The notes under the pieces: model-generated
What the model saw: only the letters and a program-made list of their open reading frames with translations
Database searches by the model: none
Told to the model about the DNA's origin: nothing
Assembly: GCF_025127995.1 (NCBI RefSeq)
Contig: NZ_JAHLYP010000038.1
Span: 62,001 to 126,000, forward strand
Direction of reading: 5' to 3'
Origin: Synechococcus sp. CS-1332
Lineage (GTDB): Bacteria; Cyanobacteriota; Cyanobacteriia; PCC-6307; Cyanobiaceae
Length of the DNA: 64,000 nucleotides
In this document: positions 30,517 to 36,969 of the stretch, one piece after another
How positions within the stretch are numbered: position 1 is the stretch's first letter
Layout of the letters: each line of letters opens with the position of its first letter
Made by a program: the position numbers and the translations under genes

Positions 30517-30903
30517 GTGAATGGGACAAGCCGTTTCGCTCCGTTGCCCCGATCCGAGCACTGGCATTGCATCAGCGGCTGCGGCTCCTGCTGCCGTCTC
30601 GATCCGGCCCTCAGGGGGGACGCGATCGAGGCCCTCAATCCTGACCAGCAACAGCTCTACCTCTCAATGGTGGGTGAGGACGGGTGGTGCCGCCACTTCG
30701 ACACCGGCTCCCGTCGCTGCCGCATCTATGCGGAGCGGCCCGACTTCTGCCGGGTGGATCAGCTGGTCTCCCTGTTCGGCCAGCCCGGCGACGATCCCGA
30801 GGCCCTGGCCATCGCCTCCTGCAAGCAGCAGATCCGTGCCGAGCTGGGGGGCCGCCACACCGTGATGCACCGTTTTCTGGGGGCGATCCGTCAGCCGACA
30901 TGA
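30517..30903 (+). CDS. YkgJ-family cysteine-cluster protein
   Basis: A 128-residue cytoplasmic protein of the zinc/iron-chelating CxxCxxCC type. Cysteines are arranged as CISGCGSCC near residue 20, GWCRHF, RRCRIY, DFCRV and ASC, matching the YkgJ/UPF0153 pattern. The role of the family is unknown; a bound metal or Fe-S cluster is expected. GTG 30517 is used. The stop overlaps the start of the first GDT1-like gene (ATGA), so coupling is likely. Confidence 0.85.
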
Positions 30904-31238
30904 GCAGCAATCCCGACGCCCCGGTCGCCTCCAGCTGGGTCACGGTGTTCCTCAGCACCGCCACCACCGTGTTCCTGGCGGAACTGGGCGACAAGACCCA
31001 GCTGGCTGCCCTGCTGCTGTCGGCCCAGTCGGGCCGCCCGTTCACGGTGTTCGTGGGGGCCTCGCTGGCCCTGATCTGCTCCAGCCTGGTGGGGGTGCTT
31101 CTGGGTCGCTGGCTCTCCACCGTCATGCCCGCCCACCAGCTTGAACGGGCTGCGGGGGTCCTGATGGTGGCCCTCGGGCTGTGGCTCGGCCGCCAGGCGG
31201 TGCTGAACCTGGCGCCGCTGCAATTGCTCAACTCCTGA
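30900..31238 (+). CDS. GDT1/UPF0016 family half-size transporter, first subunit
   Basis: A 112-residue membrane protein with one copy of the ELGDKTQLA cation-binding motif and three hydrophobic segments. Full-length GDT1/TMEM165/Mnx proteins contain two such repeats and export Mn or transport Ca. Here the two repeats are separate genes, and the partner begins eight bases downstream. The two products are expected to pair in the membrane, and a manganese-export role would suit a photosynthetic cell. Which cation is moved is inferred from the family. Confidence 0.88.
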   Translation: MSSNPDAPVASSWVTVFLSTATTVFLAELGDKTQLAALLLSAQSGRPFTVFVGASLALICSSLVGVLLGRWLSTVMPAHQLERAAGVLMVALGLWLGRQAVLNLAPLQLLNS

Positions 31239-31245
31239 GATCCCC

Positions 31246-31554
31246 ATGCCGTTTGCCCTGCTCGCCTCCACCTTCGCCACCGTCTTTCTGGCCGAGCTCG
31301 GCGACAAGACCCAGCTGGCCATCGTCAGCATCAGCGGCACCTCCAACCGGCCCGGAGCTGTCTTCGCCGGCAGTGCCACGGCGCTGGTGCTGGCCAGTCT
31401 GGTAGGGGCAGCGGCGGGTGGTTCCCTCTCCAGCGTGATCCCCACCGATGGCCTGCAACTGGCCGCCGCGGGAGGATTCCTGATCATCGGCAGCCGCCTG
31501 ATCCTCCGCTCCGGCGCGGAGAGCAGCAAGGACTCCGATACCCCCGCTCCTTAG
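31246..31554 (+). CDS. GDT1/UPF0016 family half-size transporter, second subunit
   Basis: A 102-residue protein, the second half of the split GDT1 transporter. It carries FATVFLAELGDKTQLAIVSI with the family motif and then ALVLASLVGAAAGGSLSSVI and LQLAAAGGFLIIGSRLIL as further helices. The tail is Ser-, Asp- and Lys-rich. It lies directly behind the first half-gene in the same direction, so both are made from one transcript. Confidence 0.88.
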   Translation: MPFALLASTFATVFLAELGDKTQLAIVSISGTSNRPGAVFAGSATALVLASLVGAAAGGSLSSVIPTDGLQLAAAGGFLIIGSRLILRSGAESSKDSDTPAP

Positions 31555-31700
31555 AGTCGCCGCATGACGTCCGCCGCGATGGCGAGCCTCCCCTCCGGCC
31601 ATCCAGCCGCCAGCGGGGCCGCCGAACCCCCGTCGTGCTCCGGCCCACTCTGGCCACCGCGCTGCTCCGGCAGCGCCATCCCCTGCGTAACCCCCATCCG

Positions 31701-34028
31701 ATGAAGTTCACGGTCGCCGATCTGCTCGACCACCTCTCCACGACCGATGCGGTGGCCCTCGCCAAGCTGGAGAAGTCGCTGGGTCTCACCACCAAGTCGT
31801 GCAAGCAGCAGTTGCGCATCGGCCTGGAGGCCCTGCAGCGTCTGGGGCTGGTGGAGGAGGACAGTGAAGGTCTGCGCGCCCGCGAGACCCCCGAGCTGAT
31901 CCCGGCCCGCCTGCGTTGCTCCAGCAAGGGGTTCTGTTTCGCCCTGCGGGAAGACGGCGGCGAGGACATCTACATCCGTGACCACCAGCTCAACCACGCC
32001 TGGAACGGTGACCGGGTGCTGGTCAGGATCACCCGTGAGGGGGGCCGGCGTCGCTCGCCGGAAGGGGGAGTCCAGTGCATCCTTGAGCGCCACACCCCCA
32101 GCCTGCTGGCCCAGGTCGAACGACAGGACGGGCAGCTCGTCGCCGTTCCCCTCGACGACAGGCTGCTGACCTCCGTGGCCTTGCCGGAGGACGACGCCGT
32201 CCACCTCGACCCCGCCGAGGAGGCGGTGGTGGAGGTGAAGATCGACCGCTTCCCGGTGGCCCAGTTCGGTCCGGCCGGCCATGTTGCCCGCAGCCTGCCG
32301 GTGCATGGCGGTGAGGCGGCCGACACCGATCTGCTGCTGGCCAAGCATCGCCTGCAGGAACGGCCCGCCTGCCCCCGGACGACCCTGAAGCAACCGGTCG
32401 CCAAGGGCCGTGCCGATCTGACGGCGTTGCCGACCCTGCTGCTGGAGGCCTGGGATGGCGCCGAGGCCCCCGCTCTGCCCGCCGTATCCCTGGAAGAGCG
32501 GGAGGGGGGCTGGCGTCTGTGGGTGCACAGCCCTGCCATCGCCGAACGGATCGGCATGGGCAACAGCCTCGACACCTGGTTGCGGGATCAGGGCGAGGCG
32601 ATCTGTCTCGGACGTCGCTGGCTCCCCCTGCTTCCCCCGGCCCTGGCCAAGGCCAGCGGCTTCCGCCCCGGTGAAAGCCAGGCAGCCGTTTCGGTGGCCC
32701 TGGAAATGGACGGCGAAGGAAAGCTTGAACACTTCCGCTTCAGCTTGAGCCAGATCACGCCCGCGGCCCGGGTCGACAGGGCTGCGATGCAGGCCCTGGC
32801 CGAGCGCAAGCCCAAGGCCCGCACGACGCCCGCCCCCCTGAAGGCGCTCAAGGATCACCTCCCCCTGCTGGAGCAGCTGGTCCAGCTGAGCGGATTGCTG
32901 CGCCAGCGGCGGCTGGCGGCGGGCTCGATCGATCTCGATCTGCCCATGCCTGCGATCGACAGCCTGGGCGACCTGCGCGTCCCCGCGCCGGAGGCGGCCC
33001 AGCAGGGCTGGCTGGTGGAGCTGCCCGTCGAGGATCCGGTGGCCATCCTGCGGGAGGCCGTCCTGGTGGCCCATCGGGCCCTGGGACGTCATCTGCTGGC
33101 CTTGGAGCTGCCAGCCCTGTTCGCCCTCAACCCGGCCCCTGAACCCACGGAGATCAACGACGTCGCCAAGGCGGCCCTGGCCCTTGATATCCCGATGGAG
33201 CTCAGCGCCGATGGCAATGCCAGTGCCGCCGAGCTGGCCGCCGTCTTCGCCGCCACCGACCGGGGCCGCCCCCTGCAGCAGCAACTGCGCGATGCCCTGA
33301 GGCCGGTGCAGCTGGCGGCCGAAGCCGGCGCCCATGCGGTGGCCGGTGAGGAGATCGCCGTGGCGCCCTGGTGTTCCCCGGGCCTGCACTACGCCGACCT
33401 CTGGAACCAGCAGTTGCTGGTGACCCTGCTGGTGGATGGCAAGGACCGGCCCAGTGTGCGCCACAAGATCAGCACCGATCTGGCCAGTGACACCTGCCAT
33501 GGCAGCACCGACTGGCCCCTGCTGACCCCCGGCCAGCTGGCCCCTTACCAGCAGAGCCTTGAACATGGTCTGGCCCAGCGCCTCAACGGCCGCAGCCGCT
33601 TCCTGCAGGAACTCCAGTCCGATGCCCTGGCCCTGGCCCAGGCCCGACACACCGAGCCCCTGGTCGGCCAGACCCTGCCTGGGGTGATCAGCGGCGTGCA
33701 GAGCTACGGCTTCTTCGTGGAGGTCCCCCCGTCCCAGGTGGAGGGACTGGTGCACGTCAGCTCCCTAAAGGACGACTGGTACGAGTACCGCTCCCGCCAG
33801 AACCGCCTGGTGGGCCGCAAGTTCCGACGCACCTACATGGTGGGGGATGGGGTGGATGTGGAGATCCAGAAGGTCGACGCCCTGCGCCATCAGATCGACC
33901 TGGCCGTGCTCCAGCCGGAGGCGTTTGAGCAGGACGGGGAGGACGAGGCCTCCGGCGCCCCAGACGACTCCGAGGCCCACGACCCAGCTGCAGACGGGGC
34001 TATGGCCCTGCCTGTGAGCGAAGGCTGA
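31701..34028 (+). CDS. RNase II/R-family (RNB) protein, apparently degenerate catalytic site
   Basis: A 775-residue protein with the layout of RNase II: an N-terminal helix-turn-helix and cold-shock-like region (RCSSKGFCFALREDGGEDIYI), an RNB-like core (GGWRLWVHSPAIAERIGMGNSLDTWLRDQ, read in two blocks) and a C-terminal S1 domain (GVISGVQSYGFFVEVPPSQVEGLVHVSSL, likewise). The catalytic DxxxxxDxDD run that should precede the LWVH strand is not visible; the place is taken by LEAWDGAEAPALPAV. The TSPIRRYADL motif is CSPGLHYADL. An active exonuclease is therefore doubtful, while RNA binding remains likely. ATG 31701 fits the N-terminal domain. Confidence 0.8.
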   Translation: MKFTVADLLDHLSTTDAVALAKLEKSLGLTTKSCKQQLRIGLEALQRLGLVEEDSEGLRARETPELIPARLRCSSKGFCFALREDGGEDIYIRDHQLNHAWNGDRVLVRITREGGRRRSPEGGVQCILERHTPSLLAQVERQDGQLVAVPLDDRLLTSVALPEDDAVHLDPAEEAVVEVKIDRFPVAQFGPAGHVARSLPVHGGEAADTDLLLAKHRLQERPACPRTTLKQPVAKGRADLTALPTLLLEAWDGAEAPALPAVSLEEREGGWRLWVHSPAIAERIGMGNSLDTWLRDQGEAICLGRRWLPLLPPALAKASGFRPGESQAAVSVALEMDGEGKLEHFRFSLSQITPAARVDRAAMQALAERKPKARTTPAPLKALKDHLPLLEQLVQLSGLLRQRRLAAGSIDLDLPMPAIDSLGDLRVPAPEAAQQGWLVELPVEDPVAILREAVLVAHRALGRHLLALELPALFALNPAPEPTEINDVAKAALALDIPMELSADGNASAAELAAVFAATDRGRPLQQQLRDALRPVQLAAEAGAHAVAGEEIAVAPWCSPGLHYADLWNQQLLVTLLVDGKDRPSVRHKISTDLASDTCHGSTDWPLLTPGQLAPYQQSLEHGLAQRLNGRSRFLQELQSDALALAQARHTEPLVGQTLPGVISGVQSYGFFVEVPPSQVEGLVHVSSLKDDWYEYRSRQNRLVGRKFRRTYMVGDGVDVEIQKVDALRHQIDLAVLQPEAFEQDGEDEASGAPDDSEAHDPAADGAMALPVSEG

Positions 34029-34035
34029 GCCACGG

Positions 34036-34686
34036 ATGGCGCCGTCCTCGCTTCCCGTGGTGCTGGCGGTATCAGGCGCCTCCGCCCAGCCCCTGGCGGA
34101 ACGGGCCCTGCAGCTGCTCCTTGAGGATGACCAGTCGGTCGAAATGGTGACCAGCCGTGGCGCCATTGGCGTCTGGCAGGCGGAGATGGGCCTGCGGGTG
34201 CCGTCGGAACCCGACGCCCAGGAGCGGTTCTGGCGTGAGCGCACCGGCTGCACGACCGGCCGGCTCCACTGCCATCGCTGGAACGACCAGGCCGCCGCCA
34301 TCGCCAGCGGCAGTTACCTCACCCGCGGCATGGTCATCCTGCCGGCCAGCATGGGAACGGTGGGGCGGATCGCCTCCGGAGTGGCCCTGGATCTGATCGA
34401 ACGGGCCGCCGATGTCCACCTCAAGGAGGCCCGGCCCCTGGTGATCGCGCCGAGGGAACTGCCCTGGAACCTGGTGCATCTGCGCAACCTCACCCGCCTG
34501 GCCGAGGCCGGGGCCCGCATCGCCCCCCCGGTGCCTGCCTGGTACCACCAGCCCACCACGATCGGTGAGATGGTGGATTTCCTGGTGATCCGCGTCTTCG
34601 ACACCCTCGGGCTTCAGCTGGGCTCCCTGCAGCGCTGGCAGGGGCCTGAGGCCCGTTCTTCGGCGGACGAAGCCTCCCCCCCCTGA
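34036..34686 (+). CDS. ubiX: Flavin prenyltransferase UbiX
   Basis: Makes the prenylated FMN cofactor used by UbiD-type decarboxylases. The 216-residue protein has LAVSGASAQPLAERAL (flavin and phosphate binding), the SGSYLTRGMVILPASMGTVG block with the SMGT loop, ARPLVIAPRELPWNLVHLRN and PPVPAWYHQPTTIGEMVDF. These are the conserved UbiX segments. It follows the RNB gene by seven bases in the same direction. A UbiD partner is not in the window. Confidence 0.93.
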   Translation: MAPSSLPVVLAVSGASAQPLAERALQLLLEDDQSVEMVTSRGAIGVWQAEMGLRVPSEPDAQERFWRERTGCTTGRLHCHRWNDQAAAIASGSYLTRGMVILPASMGTVGRIASGVALDLIERAADVHLKEARPLVIAPRELPWNLVHLRNLTRLAEAGARIAPPVPAWYHQPTTIGEMVDFLVIRVFDTLGLQLGSLQRWQGPEARSSADEASPP

Positions 34687-35252: not shown

Positions 35253-35329
35253 GTCCCATCGCCGCACAGACCTGAGACTTGAGGACGCTGCCTAAAGTTC
35301 CCGCACCATCGCGCCCAGGGATCGCTCCG

Positions 35330-35773
35330 GTGACCGAGACCCCCAGCAACACGCCCGATCCCGTCTCCACCCCGCCGGAGGCGAAGACAGCCGCGCCGAA
35401 GGCGAAGCCCCCAGCGCCAGAAGACAAGCCCTTCGACGCCTTCGTGCCGGAGCTGCTGCTGCCGGCCCTGATCAAAGAGATTGAGGCCTACGGCGGTCCG
35501 TCGCCCGAGCTGGTGTTCGAGCAGGGCCCCATGCCCGTGGTGGGGGCGGACTGCTGGATGGTCCGGGGCCGGCTTCCCGGCGAACGACGCTTCTGGCTCT
35601 GCTTCACCAAACCGGACATCAGTTCCGCCAAGACCATCGCCCTTACGGAAGGGGGGGGCAGCCCCAGCCTGCTGGAGTCGTTCCTGATCGATGAGAAGAA
35701 GACGACCCTCCAGCTGCTGGTGTCGCGGGTCGTGCAGCGGCTCAACGGCCAGAAGTGGCTCGGCCCCAACTAG
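35330..35773 (+). CDS. DUF2996-family protein
   Basis: A 147-residue cyanobacterial protein. The first 40 residues are Pro-, Ala- and Lys-rich and probably disordered. The conserved part follows: FVPELLLPALIKEIEAYG, DCWMVRGRLPGERRFWLCFTKPDISSAKTIAL (read in two blocks), and LLESFLIDEKKTTLQLLVSR before LVQRLNGQKWL-type ending. The family's function is not known to me. GTG 35330 is chosen because an upstream start would put translation into non-conserved sequence. Confidence 0.75.
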   Translation: MTETPSNTPDPVSTPPEAKTAAPKAKPPAPEDKPFDAFVPELLLPALIKEIEAYGGPSPELVFEQGPMPVVGADCWMVRGRLPGERRFWLCFTKPDISSAKTIALTEGGGSPSLLESFLIDEKKTTLQLLVSRVVQRLNGQKWLGPN

Positions 35774-35877
35774 GGTCTCTGACCTTTTCCTGGCTTCACA
35801 TCCGCGGCTTCACATCCGGACCGATCGCGGGGATCGATGCCTACGATGGCGGCCGAGCTCTCTGAACGTCCAGCGCG

Positions 35878-36969
35878 ATGGTGCCTCCCACCACCCAAGT
35901 CCCCACCGCCCCCCGGGTGGGCACCCCTGATTCCCCGGCCATCAAGGACCCGGTGAAGGACACGATCCTTACCCCGCGCTTCTACACCACGGATTTCGAC
36001 GCCATGGCGGCGATGGATCTGCGGCCCAACGAAGTGGAGCTGGAGGCCATCTGCGAGGAGTTCCGCAAGGATTACAACCGCCACCACTTCGTCCGCGACG
36101 GCCAGTTCGAAGGCGCCGCCGACAAGCTCGACCCCGAAACCCGCCAGGTGTTCGTCGAGTTCCTGGAGCAGAGCTGCACGTCGGAGTTCTCCGGTTTCCT
36201 GCTCTACAAGGAACTCAGCCGCCGCATCAAGGAGCGCAACCCCCTGCTGGCGGAATGCTTCGCCCATATGGCCCGTGATGAGGCCCGCCACGCCGGCTTC
36301 CTCAACAAGTCCATGGCCGACTTCGGCCTCCAGCTTGATCTGGGCTTCCTGACGGCCACCAAGGCCTACACCCACTTCCAGCCCAAATTCATCTTCTACG
36401 CCACCTATCTCTCCGAGAAGATTGGCTACTGGCGTTACATCGCCATCTACCGCCATCTGGAGCAGCACCCCGAAAGCAAGATCTTCCCGATCTTCAACTT
36501 CTTCGAGAACTGGTGCCAGGACGAGAACCGCCATGGCGACTTCTTCGATGCCCTGATGAAGGCCCAGCCAGACACGGTGCGTGGCTTCACGGCACGCCTC
36601 TGGTGCCGCTTCTTCCTGCTGGCCGTCTTCGCCACCATGTATGTGCGCGACGTGGCCCGCAAGGAGTTCTACGAGGCCCTCGGGCTCGATGCCCGCACCT
36701 ACGACAAGTACGTGATCGCCAAGACCAACGAAACTTCCGCCCGGGTGTTCCCCGTGGTCCTCAACGTCGAGCACCCCGAGTTCTACGAGCGGCTGGAGAA
36801 GCTGGTGCAGAACAACGCGGCCCTTGATCGGGCCGACCGTTCCGGCGCCCCGGCGCCGCTGCGTGCCCTGCGCAAGCTGCCCCACTGGGTCGGCAACGGT
36901 GTCCAGATGGCGCGCCTGTTCCTGATGGCCCCCATCCGCAGCGAGCGCTTCCAGCCCGCCGTGCGTTGA
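35878..36969 (+). CDS. acsF: Mg-protoporphyrin IX monomethyl ester cyclase, aerobic
   Basis: A diiron oxygenase that forms the isocyclic fifth ring of chlorophyll. The 363-residue protein shows [18 protein letters not shown], then [19 protein letters not shown] and [22 protein letters not shown], with the ExxH ligands of the diiron site. [22 protein letters not shown] supplies the second metal-ligand pair (read in two blocks). The length fits AcsF/ChlAI. It proves a chlorophyll-making, oxygen-tolerant host. An unlinked tldD-like gene follows. Confidence 0.95.

Follow-up and report, generated by a model that had tools for sequence, protein, structure and literature searches.

Zam, the cyanobacterial acetazolamide-resistance protein, whose deletion confers resistance to acetazolamide, is described as a member of the RNase II/R family with a degenerate, poorly conserved active site and with its conservation concentrated in the OB domains (PMC9145284, 2022). 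According to the same study, the first cold-shock domain (CSD1) of Zam from Synechococcus PCC 7002 carries two invariant, redox-active and essential cysteines, C73 and C79, and changing either one to serine phenocopies a zam deletion: growth is slower, phycocyanin is lower and the PSI:PSII ratio is altered. Purified PCC 7002 Zam is stated there to have neither nuclease nor RNA-binding activity (the data of this test are not displayed, and aggregation is given as a caveat), and its authors propose that Zam activates RNase E under redox control. In a review, by comparison, Alr1240 of Anabaena is said to degrade unstructured RNA and to enhance RNase E (PMC10989914). PMC9145284 takes the RNase E-binding Anabaena protein for Zam, and so apparently equates Alr1240 with it, yet calls Zam proteins non-functional nucleases; as these two sources describe it, there is a conflict between an active Alr1240 and a Zam that cannot cut RNA. 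Because activity is reported for Alr1240, not every Zam need be dead. Outside bacteria, a related history is described for Ssd1, where in fungi the cold-shock domains stay and the nuclease sites are lost repeatedly (PMC8097288).

We compare with this background a gene on the plus strand of the window (the whole stretch of 64,000 nucleotides of DNA that was analysed), which runs from an ATG at 31701 to a stop ending at 34028 and encodes a degenerate RNase II/R-family protein of 775 aa. A longer version starting from a GTG at 31635 is unlikely since the 48 relatives listed share the start point (MKF or MTF ...), and a promoter and terminator scan gave results at chance level. Pfam places a first cold-shock/OB domain (OB_RNB, the CSD1 of Zam) at residues 70-125 (31908..32075, E 3e-18), an RNB domain at residues 237-577 (32409..33431, E 1e-42) and an S1 domain at residues 654-736 (33660..33908, E 3e-10). 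The RNB match, at 146.6 bits against a gathering score of 29.3, puts the protein in the superfamily. The Pfam CSD2 profile matches two stretches, the better of which (88-130) overlaps OB_RNB, so we locate the second cold-shock domain from the strands of the predicted model, not from Pfam. At about 770 aa, and with cold-shock, RNB and S1 domains, the window protein has the build of Zam. Judged by its sequence, it belongs with cyanobacterial Zam as an orthologue, and is a pseudo-exoribonuclease akin to RNase R. This assignment is based on the architecture, the cysteine numbering and a family that spans the class, with Sll1910 and A1543 compared by published description; because the cysteines sit at exactly 73 and 79 and the other features are shared, we file the protein as Zam, taking the name from PMC9145284.

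The identity of the catalytic residues of E. coli RNase II is established knowledge, and we use it to read the active site of the window protein from an alignment with RNase II and RNase R of strain MG1655. (PMC9145284 restates these residues in part.) The four catalytic aspartates D201, D207, D209 and D210 of RNase II correspond to E249, P257, L259 and P260, all within a loop at residues 246-262 (LLLEAWDGAEAPALPAV, 32436..32486), so that Glu249, at the D201 position, is the sole acid left at the four sites. R500 corresponds to L562, in a motif (residues 559-567, 33375..33401) that now reads SPGLHYADL, with CSPGLHY in place of TSPIRRY; Y253 and Y313 have become C302 and R360. No second D-x-D-D or other catalytic cluster was found in the protein by alignment, by motif listing or by inspecting the translation by eye. 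The first-pass annotation, which had described an RNase II-like protein lacking the Asp cluster and the arginines of TSPIRRYADL, is borne out by this alignment in both respects, with the added detail that an acid persists at D201. Since the same degenerate pattern recurs across the window's family, it is no isolated slip or sequencing error. The annotation's further suggestion that the protein is non-catalytic is well supported by this sequence and by what is described for its orthologues (PMC9145284).

The fold has survived the loss of the site. An AlphaFold2 model built from an alignment of 49 sequences (mean pLDDT 87.5, pTM 0.85) has a predicted RNase R-like fold, and its best structural matches are RNase R of M. 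genitalium (7dcy, Z 37.0 over 613 residues, 4.2 A) and of E. coli (5xgu, Z 35.9 over 598 residues, 3.3 A). RNase II (Z 29.0-33.5 for the E. coli structures), Dis3, Dis3L2 and yeast Ssd1 (7am1, Z 30.5 over 604 residues, 4.2 A) also match. The sequence comparison points the same way. The top PDB sequence matches are the RNases R of B. subtilis and E. coli (we take 8cdu, one of these RNase R entries, to be from B. subtilis), and against a Zam profile E. coli RNase R scores 350.9 bits and RNase II 106.1 bits. The window protein does not qualify as an RNase R itself: it scores 207.5 bits with the NCBIfam RNase R model TIGR02063, whose cut-off is 597.85, and has E, P, L, P and L where RNase R and RNase II have the Asp cluster and R500.

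If Zam is dead as a nuclease, does the genome hold a working relative? The first-pass annotation had proposed looking for an intact RNase R paralogue. An intact paralogue is indeed present, and it is of the RNase II type: a search for RNB domains in the window's genome returned no RNase R and exactly one other match, Rnb (L001), whose catalytic residues are complete (TIDDEDTRDIDDG and TSPIRRYND). This protein shares the RNB domain with Zam but reaches only 120.3 bits with the Zam profile. In 28 chosen genomes of the window's family, the Rnb paralogues have acids at all four catalytic positions in every case (22 with four Asp and six with Glu at D207), and SP(I/L)RRY is present in all 28. The six with Glu are L298-L303 (from G148, G088, G049, G115, G064 and G040), and the open frames of L300-L303 are short, at about 400-440 aa. 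RNase E is also encoded in the window's genome.

To place the window protein among its relatives we survey 40 genomes near the window, 146 genomes of Cyanobacteriia and the best 80 of 547 named relatives, the last being close relatives only. The 255 loci include 254 with a match, of which 251 are Zam-type once Rnb and two E. coli controls are set aside; these give 234 distinct proteins, a few of them partial. The window's family (f1) contributes 107 rows, which include 69 named loci and same-genus loci assigned by similarity. Zam is found in 144 of the 146 Cyanobacteriia genomes, where the weakest of the best matches to the Zam profile stands at about E 1e-76. The family has a name and a literature already, and the earlier description of it as conserved in picocyanobacteria was too narrow. 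The two remaining genomes, G026 and G092, give weak matches only (2e-27 and 3e-29), at a level such as Rnb gives, and were left out of the residue survey together with G058, for which the position of the gene was missing, and G078, where the gene is split over two contigs. In G092, a nearly complete Cyanobacteriia genome on a single contig of 4.2 Mb, no Zam-type match is seen. Nearby, Zam-type matches occur in 39 of the 40 genomes (our own included), although some of these are fragmentary or divided; in the fortieth, G026, the match is weak and confined to the RNB domain. Two side observations belong here: 61 of 116 genomes of the phylum lack an RNB match, the 20 listed lying outside the class, and a contig titled as a Bifidobacterium breve MAG (L046, CALPNT020000003.1) carries a picocyanobacterial zam at 72% identity, so that its title or binning looks wrong.

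Quantitative inspection of the four catalytic positions reveals that, as far as sequence can tell, loss of the site in Zam is graded. Among the 234 proteins, 162 have no Asp at these positions, 17 have one, 28 have two, 27 have three and none has four; counting Asp and Glu together, the numbers are 92, 71, 43, 28 and, again, zero. High Pfam RNB scores (up to 351 bits) had suggested that intact-site Zams might exist in other cyanobacteria, and this candidate is rejected, since all four acids are present in 0/234. The remaining site residues follow the same gradient: R500, Tyr or Phe at Y253 and Tyr at Y313 occur together in 27/27 three-Asp, 26/28 two-Asp and 8/162 no-Asp Zams, with R500 itself kept in 15/162 of the last group. 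The three-Asp rows come from f23 (15/15), f12 (10/14), f17 (1/1) and f9 (1/1). Asp at D207 is seen in one row (L164) and Glu there in 18, and the deep-branching families f13, f16 and f4 have one Asp in 1/17 rows and otherwise none. At the far end of this range lies the window's family, with 105 of 107 rows lacking any Asp and 66 of 107 having no acid at any of the four positions. A FastTree tree, in which the 26 f1 rows form one clade, needs nine changes at D201, three at D207, ten at D209, five at D210 and nine at R500, the outgroup included. We do not read an order of losses from this tree, which has long branches and a split outgroup and places our own Rnb beside the window's family, surely an artefact.

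One could suppose that the window protein is instead a working exonuclease with a rearranged site, in which the neighbouring E249, D252 and E255 bind the metal. Glu249 does align with D201, there are further acids in the same loop, and the review PMC10989914 describes Alr1240 as active. With D209, D210 and R500 replaced by L, P and L, and with most of the family free of acids at the four positions, we regard this as very improbable. Such a gradient would leave room for residual activity in certain Zams and for its absence in that of the window, which may reconcile the published accounts.

Now we consider the part of the protein that has been kept. C73 and C79, which lie in the CSSKGFC loop (L12 loop, 31917..31937), are both present in 225 of the 234 Zams, the window protein among them. 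The nine exceptions are L030 (C79G), L089 (C73S, with C79 and C126 retained) and seven rows of f16 (L250-L255 and L233, from six genomes) that lack both cysteines. These f16 proteins amount to a naturally occurring test for the redox model; their loss of both cysteines may be one event, and because of them the redox switch is not universal. A third cysteine of CSD1, C126 (codon at 32076..32078), is fixed in the window's family only: it is found in 107/107 rows there and in 0/127 elsewhere, where the residue is mostly Leu (109). It falls in a predicted strand of the model (121-129), and seven Zam rows compared around this position do not differ in length there. Because the tree unites the window's family in one clade, C126 has a single origin. 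The domain has a mean identity of 0.75 over 16 diverse rows of the family, and the persistence of C126 within it suggests constraint. The graded-loss survey and C126 as a family-specific third CSD1 cysteine are among the additions made here.

Conservation is uneven along the protein. Across 15 rows from the class, mean identity is 0.68 for CSD1, 0.64 for S1 and 0.33 for RNB, and for a diverse set of 16 rows from the window's family it is 0.40 for RNB, 0.38 for the N-terminus and 0.36 for the RNB-S1 linker, so that RNB is not the fastest part there: the N-terminus and the linker are equally variable. We estimate dN/dS by simple counting, with dS close to saturation for pairs that are further apart. 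Against eight relatives, the ratio is 0 to 0.06 for CSD1 (residues 66-140), 0 to 0.13 for S1 (residues 651-740) and 0.09-0.36 for RNB, and by these measures CSD1 and S1 appear as the slowest-evolving parts of Zam. In six of six genomes the RNB domain of Zam (0.09-0.26) has a lower ratio than that of Rnb: the Zam/Rnb pairs are 0.097/0.262, 0.099/0.151, 0.094/0.133, 0.176/0.245, 0.254/0.370 and 0.257/0.272, the last nearly equal. On these ratios, the dead RNB shell is under purifying selection, kept rather than left to drift freely. This bears on the idea that zam is functionless in this lineage and decaying toward loss, for which one could cite an active site more degraded than in many other families. 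We find that idea scarcely credible: over the whole gene dN/dS is 0.08 in comparison with three near relatives and 0.14-0.32 with five that are further away, values that argue against a pseudogene, and both the gene (in all but one of the nearby genomes) and its neighbourhood are conserved.

That neighbourhood has its own regularity. Downstream of zam, at a distance of 7 bp and on the same strand, lies a ubiX-family flavin prenyltransferase gene (34036..34686, plus strand; TIGR00421 149.3 bits, cut-off 108.9), followed by a DUF2996 gene and acsF, for the Mg-protoporphyrin IX monomethyl ester cyclase (35878..36969, plus strand; TIGR02029 491.5 bits), an order (35279-36969 for these two genes) that follows zam-ubiX in f11 as well as in the window's family. 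Immediately upstream lies a pair of neighbouring GDT1 (cation/proton antiporter) genes, each of half size (30870-31554), one of which, GDT1b, is kept in 82/84 loci of the window's family. We sample 205 loci together with 5 kb, 3 kb or about 1.5 kb of flanking sequence, which is shorter where a contig ends. ubiX is near zam in 136/205 of them, and in each case it follows zam on the same strand at no more than 375 bp, with 75/84 in the window's family and 61/121 elsewhere; it is absent in f25 (14/14), f22 (14/14), f4 (6/6), f18 (5/5), f13 (4/4), f16 (6/7) and seven single-locus families. acsF is downstream in 71/205 loci (the window's family and f11), a count in which the short-flank loci could hardly reveal it. 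UbiX has a role in plastoquinone synthesis, and the gene order offers the suggestion of a link between zam and the supply of plastoquinone and chlorophyll. In the literature searched we did not find the zam-ubiX pair in print, and the full text of PMC9145284 mentions neither ubiX nor an operon.

What, then, might such a protein do? In the window protein the sequence points to lost catalytic residues within a kept RNase R-like shell, together with kept CSD1 and S1 domains and cysteine pair. For its orthologues, a redox-active pair needed in vivo and a deletion that lowers phycocyanin and alters PSI:PSII are described (PMC9145284), and the protein of Anabaena that is taken to be Zam is described as binding and boosting RNase E (PMC10989914; PMC9145284). 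We think it probable that the window's Zam is a redox-switched pseudonuclease scaffold that acts on RNase E and RNA turnover. Oxidation and reduction of C73 and C79, in a CSD1 loop that would face the RNA, would switch docking to RNase E, to RNA or to both; the RNB domain would serve as scaffold rather than enzyme, and mRNA turnover would thereby track the photosynthetic redox state. The RNase E step is inferred from the literature and goes back to one Anabaena study as relayed by the review PMC10989914. Several observations count against the scaffold: purified PCC 7002 Zam is described as not binding RNA (PMC9145284), Alr1240 is said to degrade RNA (PMC10989914), and f16 has neither cysteine.

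The first of these also touches the claim, made at first pass, of an RNA-binding factor, which is plausible from CSD1 and S1 but sits badly with that purified protein, its aggregation caveat noted. It weighs, too, on a second reading, that Zam is a free RNA-binding regulator like yeast Ssd1, whose CSD1 and S1 domains would bind chosen mRNAs and alter their translation or stability without RNase E. Ssd1 has a similar build and evolutionary pattern, with a dead RNB and conserved cold-shock domains (PMC8097288), it is among the structural matches of the model, and CSD1 and S1 are the conserved parts of Zam; the fold, however, does not single Ssd1 out, with RNase R better and E. coli RNase II similar. 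We give this second reading a real, if less than even, chance. Returning to the redox-switched scaffold, we note that the Zam literature searched yielded no experiments on any protein of the window's family.

We offer one broader scenario tentatively, and hold it to be rather doubtful. A regulatory role independent of the nuclease would have come first, and the nuclease would then have been lost stepwise and repeatedly, as in Ssd1. Zams with three Asp and R500 may still cut RNA; in picocyanobacteria the site would have been erased and C126 would have rewired the redox switch, with zam-ubiX (and in part acsF) tying RNA turnover to the supply of plastoquinone and chlorophyll. If this is true, RNA-cutting three-Asp Zams would reconcile the activity of Alr1240 with a "dead" Zam. 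Zam matters as a bacterial pseudonuclease with known phenotypes that may connect photosynthetic redox state to RNA turnover, and the survey supplies testable handles: three-Asp against no-Asp Zams, the lineage-specific C126 and the conserved zam-ubiX pair. The observation that began this work is real and largely explained already by the published work on Zam; our additions to it are modest and testable.

Set beside the known systems, the window protein stands closest to Zam of Synechocystis PCC 6803 (Sll1910) and Synechococcus PCC 7002 (A1543) as they are described: it has the same architecture and degenerate RNB site, the cysteines of CSD1 bear numbers identical to those of PCC 7002 Zam, and an intact Rnb is encoded alongside Zam elsewhere in the genome. 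It differs from them, again by description, in that nearly the whole site, along with R500, is gone from its family, where C126 is a third fixed cysteine of CSD1. With RNase R of E. coli, B. subtilis and M. genitalium it shares fold and domain order but not the Asp cluster and R500, and its C-terminal tail is acidic where that of E. coli RNase R is Lys-rich. As for yeast Ssd1, we know of no redox cysteine pair in it, and it belongs to a different branch of the RNase II family; the sequence and fold of Zam point to RNase R. The evolutionary parallel between Zam and Ssd1 (of the inactive Dis3L2 branch) is nevertheless a close one, drawn by analogy: both appear to be pseudonucleases of the RNase II family in which cold-shock domains are conserved and activity has been lost repeatedly (PMC8097288).
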